DNA of 64,000 nt from contig JAGIAD010000010.1 of assembly GCA_017745075.1 (NCBI GenBank), positions 62,001 to 126,000 of the forward strand, in the 5' to 3' direction. The position numbers were made by a program, and so were the translations under genes. Shown here one piece after another: positions 29,044 to 38,187 of this stretch. The notes under the pieces were generated by a model. It saw only the letters and a list, made by a program, of their open reading frames with translations, was not told the origin of the DNA and searched no databases. This stretch comes from Sphingobacteriaceae bacterium (GTDB lineage: Bacteria > Bacteroidota > Bacteroidia > Sphingobacteriales > Sphingobacteriaceae). Position 1 is the stretch's first letter. Every line of letters starts with the position of its first letter.

Positions 29044-29090
29044 ATCGATTAACCGGTTTAAACAATTAACCGGTTAATCGATTTTTTATT
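29044..29090 (+). terminator. 15-bp perfect inverted repeat with T tract upstream of blaI-like gene
   Basis: ATCGATTAACCGGTT (29044-29058) and AACCGGTTAATCGAT (29068-29082) are perfect inverted copies around a 9-base spacer, followed by TTTTTT. It ends about 37 bases before the blaI ATG and just upstream of the operator. It probably shields the regulator from upstream transcription, although the palindrome could also bind a protein. Confidence 0.7.
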
Positions 29091-29097
29091 AGGATGT

Positions 29098-29123
29098 TTT
29101 CGTATATTTACGATATATTCGTA
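29098..29123 (+). promoter_or_regulatory. BlaI-like operator overlapping its own promoter
   Basis: Three alternating half-sites TCGTA (29100-29104), TACGA (29109-29113), TCGTA (29119-29123), spaced 4 and 5 bases, with a -7-like TATATTTA at 29103-29110 inside it. The same half-site order and spacing occurs at 35231-35254 ahead of the GLPGLI gene. It ends 3 bases before the repressor ATG. Binding by the BlaI-type protein is inferred from position and symmetry. Confidence 0.7.
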
Positions 29124-29126
29124 ATA

Positions 29127-29489
29127 ATGGAAAAGTTAACATTACAGGAAGAAGAGGCTATGCTGGCTGTTTGGCAGCTGGGTAAGGGGTTTATTAAAGA
29201 TTTTATGGATGCATTGCCCGAGCCTAAGCCACCCTATACAACACTAGCTTCTACTATAAAAAACCTCGAACGTAAGGGGTATTTAGTAAGTGAAAGGTTT
29301 GCAAATGCGAATCGTTATAGCGCAAAGATTAAGGAAGCCGATTATAAAAAACGTTTTATGAATGGTTTTGTAAACAATTATTTTCAAAGTTCATATAAGG
29401 AACTGGTTGCTTTTTTTGCGAAGGATAAAAAAATCAGTGCCGAAGAATTAAAAGAGATAATCAACCTGATCGAAAACCCTGAAAAGTAA
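29127..29489 (+). CDS. BlaI/MecI/CopY-family transcriptional repressor
   Basis: A 120-residue winged-helix repressor with the BlaI pattern: EEEAMLAVWQLGKGFIKDFMDALP, then the recognition helix region PPYTTLASTIKNLERKGYLV, and a C-terminal dimerisation helix (SYKELVAFFAKDKKISAEELKEIINLI). Such proteins repress promoters until a membrane M56 protease (BlaR1/MecR1) leads to their cleavage. ATG 29127 is chosen over an upstream frame start at 29094 because the latter lies within the operator. It is followed after 5 bases by the M56 protease gene, the standard two-gene arrangement. Confidence 0.93.
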   Translation: MEKLTLQEEEAMLAVWQLGKGFIKDFMDALPEPKPPYTTLASTIKNLERKGYLVSERFANANRYSAKIKEADYKKRFMNGFVNNYFQSSYKELVAFFAKDKKISAEELKEIINLIENPEK

Positions 29490-29494
29490 ATGCT

Positions 29495-31003
29495 ATGCCA
29501 CATTTCTTTATCATTCTTTTAAAGATTAACCTGGTACTGATCTTGTTTTCGGCAACCTATTACCTGGTGTTGCGCAGGTTAACATTTTATTCCATCAACA
29601 GGATGTTTTTGCTGTTTGGGATTCTGTTTTCTTCAGCTTATCCGTTTATTAACCTCACCGAATTTTTTGCCAGCCGGAAAGCGGTTCCGGCATTTGTACC
29701 CCGTTTAAATCAACAGGTAAGCCAATTGGTGCAACAGGATGCCGTTTCGGTATTCTGGCAGGGATTAACCATACTTTTTTATATCGGTGTGCTGGTGATG
29801 GCTTTAAGGTTATTGGTACAGTTTATTTCCCTTTACAGGGTTCATAAAAATTCCTCTCCCGATCGCCTGGCTCACTATAAGGTAAGGATATTAAATGATG
29901 AAGTGAGCCCTTTTAGTTTTTGGCAAACCATTTATATTAATCCAGCATTGCATAAAAAGCAGGATTTAAATAATATCCTGGAGCACGAAAAAGTGCATGT
30001 GGAAGAATGGCATACGATAGATATTATCCTGGCCGAGTTCTGCATTGTTTTTTATTGGTTTAACCCGGGGGTTTGGTTGATGAAAAAAGCGGTAAGAGAG
30101 AATATTGAGTTTATTACTGATGCCAAGATCTTAAAAAAAGGGATCGATAGAAAAGCCTACCAATACAGTTTGCTGGATGTAGGCACTTTACAGCCATCGG
30201 TAGCTATTGTAAATAATTTCAATCTGTCTGACCTTAAAAAGCGGATTAAAATGATGAATGCCAAACGTTCATCGAAAGTAAATTTAACTCGCTATTTATT
30301 TGCGCTGCCGGTATTAATCTGCTTCACCCTGGCATTTACTATTGATAAAAAAGAAATAAAAACACACCTGGCGCCTTTAAGCACAATGGTAAATGATGTT
30401 TTGCCTGCAAAAGTGTCTGAAGTACAGCTAAAACCAAAAACCGCCCCTAAATTCAAGGTGAAAAAGAAAATATTTATCGATACACTGAAAGCTCCGGATA
30501 CCGCTGCAAGAATGACTTTCATCTTCAAAAGCATTTCTGCTGGGGTAGATTCTTCCCGGAAATCTATCGAAGATATGCTGAGTGGGCTAGGCAAGAAGGT
30601 GAAAATCATGAGTTTTAAAACAGACGGTAATATTAAAGGCAAAACTTTTGTACAGCACTTTAGCTTCACAGGTACTACAAAAGCCGATGAGAAAAATATG
30701 GATGTAAAGGTTCTGGCAAAGAGCGGCGATGATTTGCCGGAATTGCCTATGCCTAAGAAAAAGGGGATTAGCTATATGTATATTGTAAAATCGACCGCTA
30801 CGATCTCTGATGCTAAAGACGAAAATCAGCATCCGGCTGGTGATGGAATTATTGATGGAGTTATGGTTGCAGAAAACGCATCCTATTTTCTTAATGGAAA
30901 TAAGGTTACGAAAGATGAACTTAATAAACTTAACCCCAATAAAGTTTTTGACATAAAATTTAATCGGAATAATCAGACTATTCAGATTACGACAAAACCA
31001 TAA
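29495..31003 (+). CDS. BlaR1/MecR1-type M56-family membrane sensor protease
   Basis: A 502-residue integral membrane zinc protease. Four TM helices fill the first 275 residues: about 5-25, 35-52, 90-112 and 258-276. The zinc motif is His164-Glu165-Lys-Val-His168 in ILEHEKVHVEEWHT, with Glu205 in NIEFITDAKIL as likely third ligand. The last 225 residues form an extracytosolic domain that does not show the penicillin-binding SxxK/SxN/KTG set convincingly, so beta-lactam sensing is unlikely and the signal is unknown. By analogy with BlaR1 it would trigger inactivation of the BlaI-type repressor upstream. TonB is not part of this protein. Confidence 0.92.
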   Translation: MPHFFIILLKINLVLILFSATYYLVLRRLTFYSINRMFLLFGILFSSAYPFINLTEFFASRKAVPAFVPRLNQQVSQLVQQDAVSVFWQGLTILFYIGVLVMALRLLVQFISLYRVHKNSSPDRLAHYKVRILNDEVSPFSFWQTIYINPALHKKQDLNNILEHEKVHVEEWHTIDIILAEFCIVFYWFNPGVWLMKKAVRENIEFITDAKILKKGIDRKAYQYSLLDVGTLQPSVAIVNNFNLSDLKKRIKMMNAKRSSKVNLTRYLFALPVLICFTLAFTIDKKEIKTHLAPLSTMVNDVLPAKVSEVQLKPKTAPKFKVKKKIFIDTLKAPDTAARMTFIFKSISAGVDSSRKSIEDMLSGLGKKVKIMSFKTDGNIKGKTFVQHFSFTGTTKADEKNMDVKVLAKSGDDLPELPMPKKKGISYMYIVKSTATISDAKDENQHPAGDGIIDGVMVAENASYFLNGNKVTKDELNKLNPNKVFDIKFNRNNQTIQITTKP

Positions 31004-31588
31004 TCCGGCATTTAAAGAATTAATGCTCCTTAAATTCCGTCATTTCGAGAGATAATTTATTGTATAAAAACCAATATAAATAACATTTTTCACCCTATGG
31101 CGCAGTCTTGCCTCGGCTCGCCGCCGCCGAAGGGCTCTTTCTTTTTGGCATTAAAAAGAAACAAAAAATGCCGGCTGAAAATTTTTCTTCAAAGCCAGTA
31201 GTATAGCTAGAACAGTGCAGTCCGAAAAATTTGTTAGACCGGTTTTAAATGAAACGGTGGTGCTGTGCTATGGCCTAGCGGGGTGGAAATGCAATTGTTA
31301 AGGCAATGTGTTAAATATTAATGAGTTGCAGGGTGACGTCATTTCGAGTGGAGTACAACGTAGCCGAGAACCACGCAGTGCTCAGCGAAGCTAAATCTGT
31401 CTATCTAGACATAGATCTCTCCATTCCGCGATGCTCCAGTCGAGATGACGAGAGTTTTATTTAAAGCTATTTCGAGCAGGTCCCCACTCCGAGCGTCATC
31501 TCGAGCGAAATGCAATGAAGCCGAGAGATCTACCAAGACATAGATCTCTCCGTTCCGCTGTGCTCCAGTCGGGATGACACTTTGATAC
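31004..31588. repeat. Convergent intergenic region packed with REP-like palindromes
   Basis: About 585 bases. 31040-31060 holds a GTCATTTCGAGAGATAA fragment; around 31098-31165 is a GC-rich stretch ending in TTTCTTTTTGGCATTAAAAAG; 31337-31450 and 31491-31579 are two long imperfect palindromes starting GTCAT..TCGAG and ending in TCGAGATGAC or TCGGGATGAC, both holding the inner motif AGACATAGATCTCTCC. The second is the clearest: outer arms pair over about 85 bases with an inner GAGAGATCT/AGATCTCTC stem. They lie between two convergent genes and may end transcription. Confidence 0.75.
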
Positions 31589-34249
31589 TTAAAAACTAAA
31601 AGTAGCCTTCAACATCGCCACTCTTCCCGGAATATAATAGGTTCCTGTAGTAAGCGAATTTGCTGAAAGGTAAACGGCATCAAAGCTTTTGATATTTGCC
31701 AGATTGGTTATACCAAATTCGAAATCCGTTTTCATTTTCAGGTATTTGTATTTGATATTCATGTCAGCAAAAAGATATTTTAAATTGGGCTGGGTAGATT
31801 GGTGTGTAAATAAATGTTCGGCAGATAAGTTTACATATACATTTTTAAATGTAGCAATGGCCAGGGTAGACTGCTGCCTGAGCTGCTGAAAATTTGTTTT
31901 GATGGCATCAGCCATTTTAGCTTTATTGTCGGTTACCGAAAAATTTGCCAGATAAGACCAATTGATAAAATTGGTGAGTTTTGCTTCTATTCCAAGTTTG
32001 TATGAAATAGTCTGAGCATTAAATGCAAAGAGTTCATTGTTCTGTAATTGATCATACTGGCTCTGCGAAAAAGTAATGCCCCCGCTTAAAGTGCTTTTCA
32101 GTGCAAAAAGGTATTTGCTGGCGTTTGCATTAAAAGATAGGGTGCGGATATGGTTACTCAGTGGCAGTACAAGCCTTTGCTGGATGTTGTTGCTTAAACT
32201 GTAAGAAGAAATGGTATTCAGTTCGGTATCATTGTAGCTCGCCAGCAAATTTACAAACAACATCTGCATGGCTTTTCTAAAATTAAACCCTGCAGTAACG
32301 TTATGGGCTTTCGACTCAGAAACAGGTGCATCATTGGCAAAAAGCGAGCGGTAGTTTTTTAATACTGTGCCGCGGTAAACGTCATCAATCCCGCCTAAAT
32401 CGTTTCTAAAACTATAATTTGCCGTCACATAATTTTCAACGCTGGTTTGGTATTTTACGTTTAGAGAAGGATTTAAGAACAATTTATCCAGGCGCTTATC
32501 CAACCGGTTAATGTCATCACTATATTTAATCAGGTTATAACTTAAAGGCATGCTCAAGCCGACTTTTAATTTATCATTGGTAAATTCGTATGTGGCATCA
32601 GCATATAACTTGGTTTTTAGCCAATCGAGATCATTTACGCTATTGCCGGCTACGGGTTCGGTTTGTCCGTTGTTCTGCGTGCGGTAAAGTTCTGAATTGA
32701 GCTTTTGTTGCTGTACATTAAAACCTGCCTTGTAAGTTTGAACGAAATGATTGTTTACAAAAGCAAATGAAGCATAGTTATTGGTGTACCAGGTTGGTAT
32801 TTTGATATACTGGCTTAATCCAAGATAACTGTTTCCATTGTTTAATATATCAGCATTAAGCCCCGGGGTTATATTTAAGTTTTCTGGTTGAGTGGTGCGG
32901 TTTAAATAGGAGTAAAGGTTAATTACATCTTCTGATTTTAACTTTTTACGATAATTAAACTCATTCGAGATATCGAGCGTTTCCTGCCGCAATACCTGGT
33001 TGGCTGCCACATTGTTGATTACAAAGCCCGACGATGTTTTAAAAGGTGCATAATCGAGTACGAAATTATTGTTCAGGTAATATTTGTCGGCGTTCCCGTT
33101 GAGGTTAAATTGCGCTCTTAATTTTTGCGGATTAATGATGTTGCTCTGCGATTCGGAATAACTGATGGTTTGTCCTGAAAGATAGGTCTGCGAAAATTTA
33201 TTGTATTGCTGATTGCGCCGATCGTATAGATAAGAAATATTTGCCCTCAATTGTAAATCCTGGTTAAACTTATACAGGTTATTTAAGTTGAGCAATCCTG
33301 CTTTATTAAAAAGATACCTGCTCTGTGGCAGGGAAGGTACACCCGCGGCGCCGGTAGAAAGCAGGGCATTTAGCCTGTCGTTATCCAGTTTTTTTAAGTA
33401 ATCAGATAAGTTGTGCGAGGTAAGATCAATACCTGGATCATTACCTATGTTGTTGCCCTTAAGATTATTGATGAATTTAAGCTTTTTATTGAACAGCATG
33501 GCTGTTAGGTTTTCATCAAAACGCTCTGGCATGCCTGCGCCAACGGTGGCATCGCCCATTACTTTAAGTTTAGCTTCGTCTTTAAGTACCAGGTTCAGTG
33601 CTACATCATCGCTCATGTTATTTTTGCGCATCATTTTAATTGGTTGGTCATTCTGGATAACCTGTACCTTATCTACGGCGTTCTGCGGGATGCTTTTGGT
33701 TCCAATATTGTATTTGTCATCTAAAAGGTTATCGCCATCCACATATAGGTTAGAAATAGATTTTCCGTTATAACTGATTTTTCCATCTTCGGCTACTTCG
33801 ATACCCGGCATTTTTTTGAGTACATCGCCAATGCTTCTGTCTTGTTTATCCGCAAAATCAGACGGCCTGTAATTTAAGGTATCGCCACGGGCTGTTAGCG
33901 ATGGCCGGTTTTTAACGGTAACAGTTTCCAATGTGGTTTCGCTGGGTTGTAAAATCAGGTCGTAGCTTTTAGCTGCATCAGTTACCGTAGTAATCAGTTT
34001 TTTATAGCCAATACTTGATGCTTCAATTTTGTAACCTGCAATCTGGTCATTTTTGAGTTCCATGCTAAAAGCACCGGTTTTGTTTGTACGGGTAAAATTA
34101 ATGATGTTGCCTTCAGCATCCTTTAAAGTTACGTTAACCGATTCGACCCCTTTACCGCTAACATCTTTTACCAGGCCTTTAAGAGGCTTTTGGGCAAAAA
34201 CAGAAAAAGCTGCCAGCAGCAGCCAGCAGGTTAAAGTGAGCTTTTTCAT
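31589..34249 (-). CDS. Outer-membrane beta-barrel protein with carboxypeptidase-regulatory-like domain (TonB-receptor-like)
   Basis: An 886-residue outer-membrane protein. Signal peptide MKKLTLTCWLLLAAFSVFAQ; Ig-like carboxypeptidase D regulatory domain (about 22-105, KPLKGLVKDVSGKGVESVNV onward); a plug-like region (about 120-230, with DRSIGDVLKKMPGIEVAEDGKISYNGKSISNLYVDGD); then a long beta-strand-rich barrel ending TFSF. It belongs to the Bacteroidota outer-membrane barrel family 3 related to TonB receptors but lacks a siderophore-type plug signature. Its ATG overlaps the stop of the GLPGLI gene in ATGA, so they are translationally coupled. Likely partner of the GLPGLI protein in transport or assembly of an unknown substrate. 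Confidence 0.9.
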   Translation of the reverse strand: MKKLTLTCWLLLAAFSVFAQKPLKGLVKDVSGKGVESVNVTLKDAEGNIINFTRTNKTGAFSMELKNDQIAGYKIEASSIGYKKLITTVTDAAKSYDLILQPSETTLETVTVKNRPSLTARGDTLNYRPSDFADKQDRSIGDVLKKMPGIEVAEDGKISYNGKSISNLYVDGDNLLDDKYNIGTKSIPQNAVDKVQVIQNDQPIKMMRKNNMSDDVALNLVLKDEAKLKVMGDATVGAGMPERFDENLTAMLFNKKLKFINNLKGNNIGNDPGIDLTSHNLSDYLKKLDNDRLNALLSTGAAGVPSLPQSRYLFNKAGLLNLNNLYKFNQDLQLRANISYLYDRRNQQYNKFSQTYLSGQTISYSESQSNIINPQKLRAQFNLNGNADKYYLNNNFVLDYAPFKTSSGFVINNVAANQVLRQETLDISNEFNYRKKLKSEDVINLYSYLNRTTQPENLNITPGLNADILNNGNSYLGLSQYIKIPTWYTNNYASFAFVNNHFVQTYKAGFNVQQQKLNSELYRTQNNGQTEPVAGNSVNDLDWLKTKLYADATYEFTNDKLKVGLSMPLSYNLIKYSDDINRLDKRLDKLFLNPSLNVKYQTSVENYVTANYSFRNDLGGIDDVYRGTVLKNYRSLFANDAPVSESKAHNVTAGFNFRKAMQMLFVNLLASYNDTELNTISSYSLSNNIQQRLVLPLSNHIRTLSFNANASKYLFALKSTLSGGITFSQSQYDQLQNNELFAFNAQTISYKLGIEAKLTNFINWSYLANFSVTDNKAKMADAIKTNFQQLRQQSTLAIATFKNVYVNLSAEHLFTHQSTQPNLKYLFADMNIKYKYLKMKTDFEFGITNLANIKSFDAVYLSANSLTTGTYYIPGRVAMLKATFSF

Positions 34250-35202
34250 TTTTTGTTTTCAATTTCAATCGGGTTGTTTACTTCGGCCTTAACTGGAGCC
34301 GCACCTTTAGGGCGTGGTGCCTGATTCATTCTGAATGAGCCTTGCATACCGTTTGCTGCCATTTGTGCCTGCATAAAGCCTTGTGGGTCCTTATCACGGG
34401 CAGCTTTAAGTTTATCCAGCTCTTTCCAGGTGGTTTTTATTGCATCAGTTGGTAATTTAATTTCAGGCCCCAGGTAGCTTGTGTTTACATCTATTCCCAT
34501 AATTTTTACCGAGCCCACACCGCCATTTGGAGCTGCAATTTTAACATCGCCGTCGGCATTGGTAGCAGCATCTGCTTCTCTTACATTTTCGAGCCCAGCA
34601 AATTCAAATTTCACTTCTTTTTTGTCGTCATAAGCTTCTATTATTAAACCTGGGAGACCGTTTAATTTCCACGGACCGCTTTGAAAAGGAATCTCAGTAG
34701 CAAACCAGGCAATCCAGTTACGGCCTTTAAATTTGGCAGTTGCTTTCTGGCAGGCTACTCCCGAAAAACTCATTGTATCTTTTAGTATTTTCCAATTTAT
34801 AGTAGGGGCAGGTTCTTCAACCAGGTAATTGTTAAACAGGCGTTCTTTGGTAATCATTTTGTGCTCGTTGGCAAAAAAGAAATAATCTTCCTGGGTAGGC
34901 TGTGTTTTCATTTCGCTTTTCACTTCAATTTTCATGTTGCCATTGCCGCTTTGGTTTTTTATCTGCTCCTGGATCTGCTTTTGCATGTTGAGTGATTGAT
35001 TCAGTTTATCGTAGCTGGTATAAACAGATGCATTTTTGCCGGTAACCAATAGCATGTTTTCGGTCTTAGGCTTATCGCGTTGGGTCGTATCCTGTATATG
35101 GGTAAAAGTGTAACGTACTCGTGCCAGGGCTTTATCGGGGTTTTGAGCTTTGACAGACAGGGTTAGCGCTGTGGCTAAACAAAAAGGTAGTATTCGTTTC
35201 AT
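34246..35202 (-). CDS. GLPGLI-family exported protein
   Basis: A 318-residue exported protein with a signal peptide (MKRILPFCLATALTLSVKAQ) and the name-giving motif in GPWKLNGLPGLIIEAYD around residue 180. GLPGLI proteins are Bacteroidota-specific periplasmic or surface proteins of unknown biochemical role, often found beside TonB-like barrels. The long internal stretch (about 200-300) is Met/Asn/Gly-rich in part (QMAANGMQGSFRMNQAPRP). It is first in a two-gene operon with the barrel protein and carries the same operator as the blaI-like gene upstream of its ATG, so the BlaI-type repressor is a good candidate for its control. Confidence 0.92.
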   Translation of the reverse strand: MKRILPFCLATALTLSVKAQNPDKALARVRYTFTHIQDTTQRDKPKTENMLLVTGKNASVYTSYDKLNQSLNMQKQIQEQIKNQSGNGNMKIEVKSEMKTQPTQEDYFFFANEHKMITKERLFNNYLVEEPAPTINWKILKDTMSFSGVACQKATAKFKGRNWIAWFATEIPFQSGPWKLNGLPGLIIEAYDDKKEVKFEFAGLENVREADAATNADGDVKIAAPNGGVGSVKIMGIDVNTSYLGPEIKLPTDAIKTTWKELDKLKAARDKDPQGFMQAQMAANGMQGSFRMNQAPRPKGAAPVKAEVNNPIEIENKK

Positions 35203-35227
35203 AATAATTGTTTTAGTATCTATTTAT

Positions 35228-35254
35228 TTTTCGTAAATCTACGAATATTTCGTA
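35228..35254 (-). promoter_or_regulatory. BlaI-like operator in GLPGLI promoter
   Basis: TCGTA (35231-35235), TACGA (35240-35244), TCGTA (35250-35254), spacers 4 and 5 bases, identical in order and spacing to 29100-29123; 21 of 27 aligned bases agree. A -7-like TAGATTTA on the minus strand lies inside it, 32 bases upstream of the ATG. Confidence 0.7.
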
Positions 35255-37155: not shown

Positions 37156-37332
37156 GTTATATGGTGATTAGTTCATTAGTCATTGGTTCACTGGTCATTA
37201 GCTTGTACCATCACTTAACTGACTTACGACTCCAGACTGTCGACTCCCGACTCATTTGTTAAACCCTGTTAAATAACAAAAATTAACATTTCAGGCCTTT
37301 AGATTTGGGTATTGATTTTAAAACAAATCCCC

Positions 37333-38187
37333 ATGAATCTGAAGAAAATATCTTTATTGGTTGCATTACTTATTTCTGGCCGCTTATTAAATGCACAAGA
37401 GGTCGAAGAAAATATCCGCATGGTAAAGCCGTTTAAGGCCGATGGTATATCGAACGAATGGAACGAACCGCTTAACCAGTATAATGATGCCACCCGGCTG
37501 GCTTTTGCCCTGGCTAATGACGATCAAAACCTTTACGTTATTATTGAATCTCTAGACCCGCAAACTACTTTTAGCATATTAAGCGGAGGTATTACCTTAA
37601 ATATTAATACAGCTGGCAAAAAGAAAGACGGGATGAAATTAACCTTTCCGCTGATGGAAAGACCACCCTCACCCAAAGATGTAGATGCATCGGAAGGTCA
37701 TCATACGCAGCATCCTGATGGAGATATGGGAATGATGCACGATCCTGCAGCGATGAATAAAGGTATTCGCGTATCGGGTTTCAAAAACATTGCTGATGGC
37801 GATTTACCGGCCGATAACCAGAGCGGGATTGAAACGGGTATGAGTATACATCCCAATAAAGACCTGATTTATGAACTTCGCATTCCCCTGGCGCAACTGG
37901 GTGTGGATTTAGATATGAAAAAACCATTGGTTTACAACATTAAAATTAATCAACCCAACAAAACTGCTATGCATAAAGCTGGTAAGCCAGAAGGTGGAGG
38001 CAGAGCAGGTGGTTTTTCTGGTGGTGGAAAAGGTATGGGCGGAATGGGCGGTGGCCGTGGTGGTATGGGTGGAGGAAGATCAGGAGGTGGTATGGGCGGT
38101 GGCCGTGGTCAAAGACCCCAGGAAGGGGGAGAATTTCCTGCTAAATCATCAGATTTTTGGATTAAATACAAGTTGGTTAAAAGCTAA
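37333..38187 (+). CDS. Exported protein with CBM9/DOMON-like domain and Gly/Met-rich tail
   Basis: A 284-residue exported protein. ATG 37333 (MNLKKISLLVALLISGRLLNAQ) gives a clean signal peptide; the TTG 21 bases upstream is unlikely. The mature N-terminal half has VKPFKADGISNEWNEPLNQY and RLAFALANDDQNLYVIIESL, the pattern of CBM9/DOMON-like beta-sandwich domains. Near residue 120-145 is a His/Met/Asp cluster (SEGHHTQHPDGDMGMMHDP) that might bind metal, and residues about 215-265 are a low-complexity Gly/Met/Arg tract (GGRGGMGGGRSGG type). The C-terminus FWIKYKLVKS is typical for this family. Function unknown. Confidence 0.75.
   Translation: MNLKKISLLVALLISGRLLNAQEVEENIRMVKPFKADGISNEWNEPLNQYNDATRLAFALANDDQNLYVIIESLDPQTTFSILSGGITLNINTAGKKKDGMKLTFPLMERPPSPKDVDASEGHHTQHPDGDMGMMHDPAAMNKGIRVSGFKNIADGDLPADNQSGIETGMSIHPNKDLIYELRIPLAQLGVDLDMKKPLVYNIKINQPNKTAMHKAGKPEGGGRAGGFSGGGKGMGGMGGGRGGMGGGRSGGGMGGGRGQRPQEGGEFPAKSSDFWIKYKLVKS

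Follow-up and report, generated by a model that had tools for sequence, protein, structure and literature searches.

A candidate two-promoter BlaI-M56 regulon with a GLPGLI-barrel gene pair as its target in a Sphingobacteriaceae genome

The analysis presented here suggests that, in the bacterium studied, a BlaI-type repressor and an M56 membrane protease form a regulon with two promoters, in which the autoregulated repressor would also repress a convergent gene pair, encoding a GLPGLI family protein and an outer-membrane barrel-type protein, and in which proteolysis by the M56 protein would lift this repression. We assign this reading a probability of about 0.8. All positions refer to the window, i.e. 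the whole stretch of 64,000 nucleotides that was analysed. The features concerned are the following.

29090 to 29094, plus strand: imperfect fourth half-site (TAGGA) preceding the blaI operator (one-mismatch match at 29090-29113 on the minus strand)
29100 to 29123, plus strand: blaI operator TCGTA-N4-TACGA-N5-TCGTA, exact match, preceding the BlaI-type gene
29103 to 29110, plus strand: -7-like box TATATTTA within the central inverted repeat of the blaI operator
29127 to 29489, plus strand: BlaI-type repressor, 120 amino acids (MEKLTLQEEEAM...), Pfam Penicillinase_R
29495 to 31003, plus strand: M56 membrane metalloprotease (BlaR1-like), 502 amino acids, with a C-terminal extension, Pfam Peptidase_M56
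31589 to 34249, minus strand: outer-membrane barrel-type protein, 886 amino acids, CarboxypepD_reg followed by a plug-like region (Pfam)
34246 to 35202, minus strand: GLPGLI family protein, 318 amino acids, probably exported, NCBIfam TIGR01200
35231 to 35254, minus strand: GLPGLI operator TCGTA-N4-TACGA-N5-TCGTA, exact match, read along the gene as TACGA-N5-TCGTA-N4-TACGA
35234 to 35241, minus strand: -7-like box TAGATTTA within the central inverted repeat of the GLPGLI operator

In the proposed mechanism, the BlaI-type repressor would bind TACGA/TCGTA half-sites about one helical turn apart and would cover the -7 box of its own promoter as well as that of the convergent GLPGLI-barrel promoter. 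The periplasmic part of the M56 protein would sense a signal in the cell envelope, upon which its zinc-protease site would cut BlaI. Cleavage would switch both units on, and autoregulation would then reset the system. The position at which BlaI is cleaved is known from S. aureus. The data directly show the two sites and their conservation, the association with one BlaI clade, an intact protease motif and the lack of a match to a penicillin-binding domain. Binding, repression and cleavage as well as the envelope-related nature of the signal are steps that we infer.

Operators at the two promoters

Both copies of the three-half-site motif that the first-pass annotation had reported, at 29100-29123 and at 35231-35254, are exact, and its count of 21 agreeing bases out of 27 is correct for 29097-29123 compared with 35228-35254. 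Its description of the half-sites as having an identical order holds on the plus strand, but not along the genes, where the two sites are mirror images of each other. The TAnATTTA -7-like boxes that it had seen overlapping each site lie inside the central inverted repeats, as TATATTTA and TAGATTTA, respectively. The convergence of the two units on 31.0-31.6 kb agrees with the gene ends, the M56 gene ending at 31003 and the barrel gene at 31589. Between these convergent genes, at 31320-31590, two near copies of an element (GTCATTTCGAG... and GTCATCTCGAGCG...) were noticed by eye.

When up to two mismatches were allowed, the window contained three operator matches, compared with 0.03 expected from shuffled sequences. 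Across the 5.83 Mb of the genome, no exact copy other than the two window sites occurs. A search of this genome at the same tolerance gave six matches in all, compared with 12 for a reversed-pattern control; thus, nothing beyond the two exact copies rises above chance, and the assumption of extra operators in the genome is unsupported. A chance repeat as the source of the two sites is ruled out by the motif counts in the window, in the genome, in Pedobacter and in the host family. Random occurrence of the motif, against which the first-pass annotation had wished its proposal to be judged, is likewise at odds with the count of just two exact copies in this genome and with the co-occurrence of the motif with the M56 orthologue described below.

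Conservation of the promoters was assessed in a pool of motif-chosen and protein-chosen loci with 124 distinct blaI and 127 GLPGLI upstream regions. The core TCGTA-N4-TACGA is kept with at most one mismatch in 119 of these blaI and in 107 of these GLPGLI regions, and the half-site columns of the blaI core average 1.97 bits compared with 0.45 in the upstream flank. The 20 GLPGLI regions without a core, as far as they could be placed, belong to genes inside tandem arrays or are cut by contig ends. Among the core-bearing promoters of the pool, the octamer TATATTTA is found in 73 of the 119 blaI promoters, with 118 fitting TAnnTTTA, and TAGATTTA in 69 of the 107 GLPGLI promoters, with 89 fitting TAnnTTTA and 18 deviating from it. 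For flavobacteria, the -7 box is given as TAnnTTTG in a passage of PMC9723704. Relative to the -7 box, the third half-site is on the downstream side at blaI (in 112 of the 119 core-keeping promoters of the pool) and on the upstream side at GLPGLI (in 103 of the 107), and the sites are therefore mirror images along the genes. At the position of the fourth half-site, TACGA is present in 31 and TAGGA in 28 of the 119 core-bearing blaI promoters. The period of the half-sites is 9-10 bases, which suggests that two BlaI dimers may bind next to each other across the -7 box.

Co-occurrence with the M56 orthologue and sites elsewhere

The exact motif was found in 115 of 301 genomes of the host family, Sphingobacteriaceae, and the reversed control in one genome of the same tabulation. 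Among 99 Pedobacter genomes, 53 carry the motif and 52 a close M56 orthologue, defined by an E-value of at most 5.7e-95, with the next matches at 1e-42. All 52 Pedobacter genomes with the orthologue contain the motif, compared with one of the 47 others. The corresponding Fisher p of 1e-27 is not corrected for shared ancestry and overstates the evidence, because related genomes are not independent.

Since loci selected mostly by the motif are circular evidence (53 of 53), the counts that matter are those from 80 loci fetched by similarity to the M56 protein and not by the motif. In this set, the core lies within reach of blaI in 76 of 78 cases, of GLPGLI in 53 of 54 and of both in 51 of 53. The exceptions are two blaI cores with two mismatches (L165 and L170) and one locus (L134) where the GLPGLI core is absent and the GLPGLI reading frame is truncated where the contig stops. 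Near the starts of other reading frames of at least 200 amino acids, the core was found with at most one mismatch in 54 of 1056 cases, a count that may include both neighbours of true sites and chance matches and from which eight loci with known sites at other genes were excluded. The co-occurrence of the motif with blaI-M56 and GLPGLI genes, for which the first-pass annotation had suggested a search, was thus found, with the core at both promoters in 51 of 53 protein-chosen loci. Its wider proposal of one regulon with an M56 sensor is supported by the co-occurrence, by the protein-chosen loci and by the unlinked sites described further below.

In a class-wide draw, 10 of 295 genomes carried the motif, six in the host family and four among the 285 outside it. 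Measured against six genomes with the reversed pattern, the four outside the family are, by count alone, what chance would give. In all four of them the motif lies immediately upstream of blaI-M56, the reversed-pattern hits having been compared by count alone, and their BlaI has the same PYTTLAST recognition region. Conversely, six GLPGLI genes from genomes without the M56 orthologue (L199, L209-L213) showed no core with fewer than two mismatches within 300 bases upstream; among these controls only L199, from genome G328, is a close homologue, the others being more distant. The barrel gene follows GLPGLI in five of these six regulator-less loci (L199, L209, L210, L212 and L213, not L211), and the pair itself therefore looks like a unit. 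A sample of 37 genomes of the phylum contained nine with both BlaI-type and GLPGLI genes, which lie within about 5 kb of each other in two of them, the window genome and G373. Thus, the linkage between BlaI and GLPGLI recurs across the phylum but is not general.

Sites were also found where the two units are separated from each other or where only one of them is present. In one genome (G200) they lie 149 kb apart, with the units unlinked (L042/L043), and in another (G243, L222) a GLPGLI-barrel unit with a site has no blaI within the 16-kb stretch. Sites also occur at blaI-M56 genes without a nearby GLPGLI gene (L097, L098, L104, L112 and L217-L220), and some extra tandem GLPGLI genes carry further ones (L075, L080, L093 and L095). 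Tandem expansion of GLPGLI, with up to five genes beside one barrel gene, was observed in L075, L076, L080, L138 and L149. In other genera, the site also precedes unlinked genes of the exported type, which encode a 'DGKxxEW' protein (L099, L100 and L107), a TPR/DUF6624 protein (L101) or a CarboxypepD barrel (L103).

As a separate observation, the window encodes on the plus strand, at 37324-38184, a protein 32% identical to one from genome G025 that is encoded by a gene with the TCGTA/TACGA operator (L107). The window protein has no Pfam match, and neither it nor its G025 relative has an NCBIfam match. The gene is separated from the GLPGLI operator by about 2 kb with two genes that by eye resemble rplU and rpmA, and no operator with up to two mismatches was found near it. 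Furthermore, in 12 of 25 loci mostly from Mucilaginibacter (L012-L036), a divergent gene, by eye a short-chain dehydrogenase, starts 100-200 bases from the blaI operator. In three loci of Chitinophagaceae, including Terrimonas (L166, L167 and L171), BlaI-M56 and barrel-GLPGLI units are convergent, with operators having zero or one mismatch; these loci possibly arose by lateral transfer.

The one motif-bearing Pedobacter genome without the M56 orthologue (G150) has kept both flanks of the locus, with 84-90% nucleotide identity, and in it a single hybrid operator (L038, 9231-9264) replaces the four-gene block. This arrangement resembles what a deletion by recombination of the two sites would leave behind, although it could also represent an unoccupied ancestral state.

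Properties of the encoded proteins

The BlaI-type protein matches Pfam PF03965 (Penicillinase_R) over residues 5-116 of 120 with 87.4 bits (cut-off 22.6), and it matches the MecI/BlaI structures of S. aureus by sequence with E-values of 3.3e-6 to 8.6e-6. A longer reading frame from the ATG at 29094 would begin inside the operator region; as homologues begin at MEKLT or similar, the start is placed at 29127. The window genome contains six full-length BlaI-type genes.

The M56 protein matches Pfam PF05569 (Peptidase_M56) with 54.5 bits (cut-off 31), and all 44 M56 homologues compared share the residues H164, E165 and H168 of its HExxH zinc motif. Its predicted model matches S. aureus BlaR1 (8exq) with an E-value of 1.5e-5. 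The organism is a Pedobacter closely related to P. zeae, to whose M56 protein the window protein is 87% identical over the best segment. In agreement with the claim of the first-pass annotation that the sensor is without a beta-lactam-binding domain, the Pfam search of the window protein gave Peptidase_M56 only and no penicillin-binding domain. Likewise, no transpeptidase is among the four Pfam families listed for 20 M56 homologues. Eight of these 20 homologues match the Plug domain of TonB receptors in Pfam; no such match was obtained for the window protein itself. The model is poor over residues 281-461, with a pLDDT below 50 for 361-461, and its last 40 residues form a beta-alpha-beta unit with a pLDDT of about 70. 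As to this C-terminal region, a profile search with A3 matched no solved structure by sequence, and structures not listed by Foldseek or VIA-align exclude nothing.

The GLPGLI protein matches NCBIfam TIGR01200 with 162.3 bits (cut-off 50), and its N-terminal hydrophobic helix suggests that it is probably exported. The gene for the barrel-type protein overlaps the GLPGLI gene by four bases. In Pfam, this protein matches CarboxypepD_reg with 32.8 bits (cut-off 32.3) and Plug with 19.1 bits, below the cut-off of 23.9; as no barrel model itself was matched in the 886 residues, the label 'barrel' refers to this architecture. The predicted GLPGLI model (pLDDT 76) aligns to the PNGase PNGF-II (4r4z) with a Z-score of 15.1 and an rmsd of 3.2 over 171 residues. 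Its alignment to 7zgn, an entry that bears the name 'Glpgli family protein', has a Z-score of 14.2. Z-scores against LolA reach 8.8 and against RseB 7.6, with identities of 4-11%, Z-scores of 7-9 being a range in which unrelated matches are common and which may reflect no more than a frequent arrangement. The resemblance of the predicted fold to the 'bowl' domain of PNGases and, weakly, to LolA/RseB hints at a role in envelope homeostasis, and together with the co-encoded barrel-type protein it suggests a probable function of the pair at the outer membrane. The function of the N-terminal bowl-like (NBL) domain of type II PNGases is described as unknown in a passage of PMC9522356. GLPGLI genes appear among PhoP targets (PMC9603813), and two of them in a PG0720 comparison (PMC8757827); the passages of these two papers that deal with GLPGLI make no tie to BlaI.

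Repressor clades, alternative explanations and known systems

In a midpoint-rooted tree of 38 BlaI proteins, the 24 that are linked to TCGTA sites form one clade with a support of 0.99 and have their own recognition-helix sequence. These 24 include the protein of L165, where the core has two mismatches, and that of L114, where the site precedes the M56 gene and blaI comes after it. Two groups of four proteins each, linked to GTCTA and AACTA repeats, form other clades. In the latter group, AACTA-N6-TAGTT is found exactly before blaI in L197, L204 and L206 and is absent from the stretch searched for L214. In the GTCTA group, L200-L203 are paralogous arrays of the order GLPGLI-barrel-BlaI-M56. 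GTCTA-N6-TAGAC is exact before GLPGLI in L201, L202 and L203; a repeat check found no exact repeat of this kind before blaI in L200-L203, where by eye a one-base variant precedes blaI in L200, L202 and L203. A fourth class of operators, 'AACTT', was dropped because L198, L205, L207, L208 and L215 share no consistent short repeat. In genome G373, which belongs to another family, the genes for BlaI, M56 and two GLPGLI proteins follow each other in a row (L221). With the GTCTA-type arrays included, at least two BlaI clades thus have BlaI-M56 linked to GLPGLI.

The two sites could also be direct repeats of a mobile cassette, as its ends or att-like sequences, their promoter position being incidental. 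Such a cassette would account for the same orientation of both copies on the plus strand, for the single site between conserved flanks in G150 and for the patchy presence of the M56 orthologue in Pedobacter. However, it would not account for sites at GLPGLI-free blaI-M56 genes, at unlinked exported genes and at extra tandem GLPGLI genes, nor for the gene-oriented TAnnTTTA box in the core of nearly all blaI (118 of 119) and most GLPGLI promoters (89 of 107). In addition, no integrase was noticed on inspection of the four-gene block, and we regard the cassette reading as highly improbable. Alternatively, another transcription factor might bind both sites, BlaI being only one of its targets. We consider this very unlikely, as the motif goes with a single BlaI clade in different genera, GLPGLI promoters in a different clade carry GTCTA-N6-TAGAC, and in a third clade AACTA-N6-TAGTT precedes blaI itself. 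The absence of a site from the GLPGLI-barrel unit of G328, which has no close M56 orthologue, also argues for BlaI, as does the known binding of BlaI and MecI to inverted repeats (described in a passage of PMC7253601).

Finally, BlaI might bind both sites without being cut by the M56 protein, a direct ligand lifting the repression as copper does for CopY. The BlaI-type protein does give a weak match to TIGR02698 (CopY_TcrY), with 28.5 bits compared with a cut-off of 122. However, inspection of its 120 residues, which end in ...IINLIENPEK, revealed no Cys-X-Cys motif, and the M56 gene is adjacent and encodes the invariant zinc-site residues, so that a ligand-released repressor appears improbable. 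The two-promoter BlaI-M56 regulon with proteolytic release is thus the reading that we prefer.

BlaI-M56 switches are of a known kind. The window system shares with BlaI-BlaR1 and MecI-MecR1 the adjacent genes for repressor and M56 membrane protease, the presence of repeats at both its own and a target promoter, and the matches of the two proteins to MecI/BlaI and BlaR1 structures. Unlike in these systems, no penicillin-binding sensor domain of the transpeptidase or class-D-like type was found in the window M56 protein with Pfam, and the Plug domain is matched by eight of 20 homologues. The only other exact site of the genome lies at GLPGLI-barrel and not at a beta-lactamase or PBP gene, and the operator is built from TACGA/TCGTA in contrast to the staphylococcal TACA/TGTA (as given in part of PMC7253601). 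CopR-CopY belongs to the same repressor superfamily and likewise has a small repressor acting on inverted repeats; the CopY operator RNYKACANNYGTMRNY and the C-terminal Cys-X-Cys metal motif described in a passage of PMC7253601 were, however, not found here, and the window repressor has an M56 partner. The likeness of the GLPGLI protein to type II PNGases with an NBL domain concerns the predicted fold, as its model aligns to 4r4z and 7zgn; unlike them, it stands alone, is paired with a barrel-type protein and has no PNGase catalytic domain that was seen. LolA/LolB and RseB have the fold of an open beta-barrel with a helical lid, which binds acyl chains or lipoproteins. The similarity of the GLPGLI model to the LolA and RseB chains is within the range of common arrangements. 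In the literature searched, in which subscription journals are thinly covered, no BlaI-M56 system was met that lacks a penicillin sensor and has GLPGLI-barrel as its target.

A more far-reaching idea, which we put forward only tentatively and consider rather unlikely, is that BlaI-M56 pairs of this kind serve as an outer-membrane surveillance system of Bacteroidota comparable to RseB/DegS-sigmaE, but made from components of a penicillin-resistance switch. The C-terminal part of the M56 protein would then monitor barrels or plugs, as the Plug matches in the homologues might indicate, LolA/RseB-like GLPGLI proteins with their barrel partners would be the response, and more than one BlaI clade, each with an operator of its own, would have acquired GLPGLI targets.

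Overall, this soil bacterium appears to use a sensor-altered relative of the penicillin-resistance switch for the control of the switch itself and of a gene pair of the outer envelope. For the GLPGLI family, whose function is unknown, the locus thereby provides a candidate regulator and a partner gene, as well as a predicted fold and a promoter that can be used for screening. Furthermore, the BlaI clades with their different operators could help to predict BlaI regulons across the phylum. Should envelope damage turn out to be the signal, the system would be a stress pathway assembled from components of antibiotic resistance.
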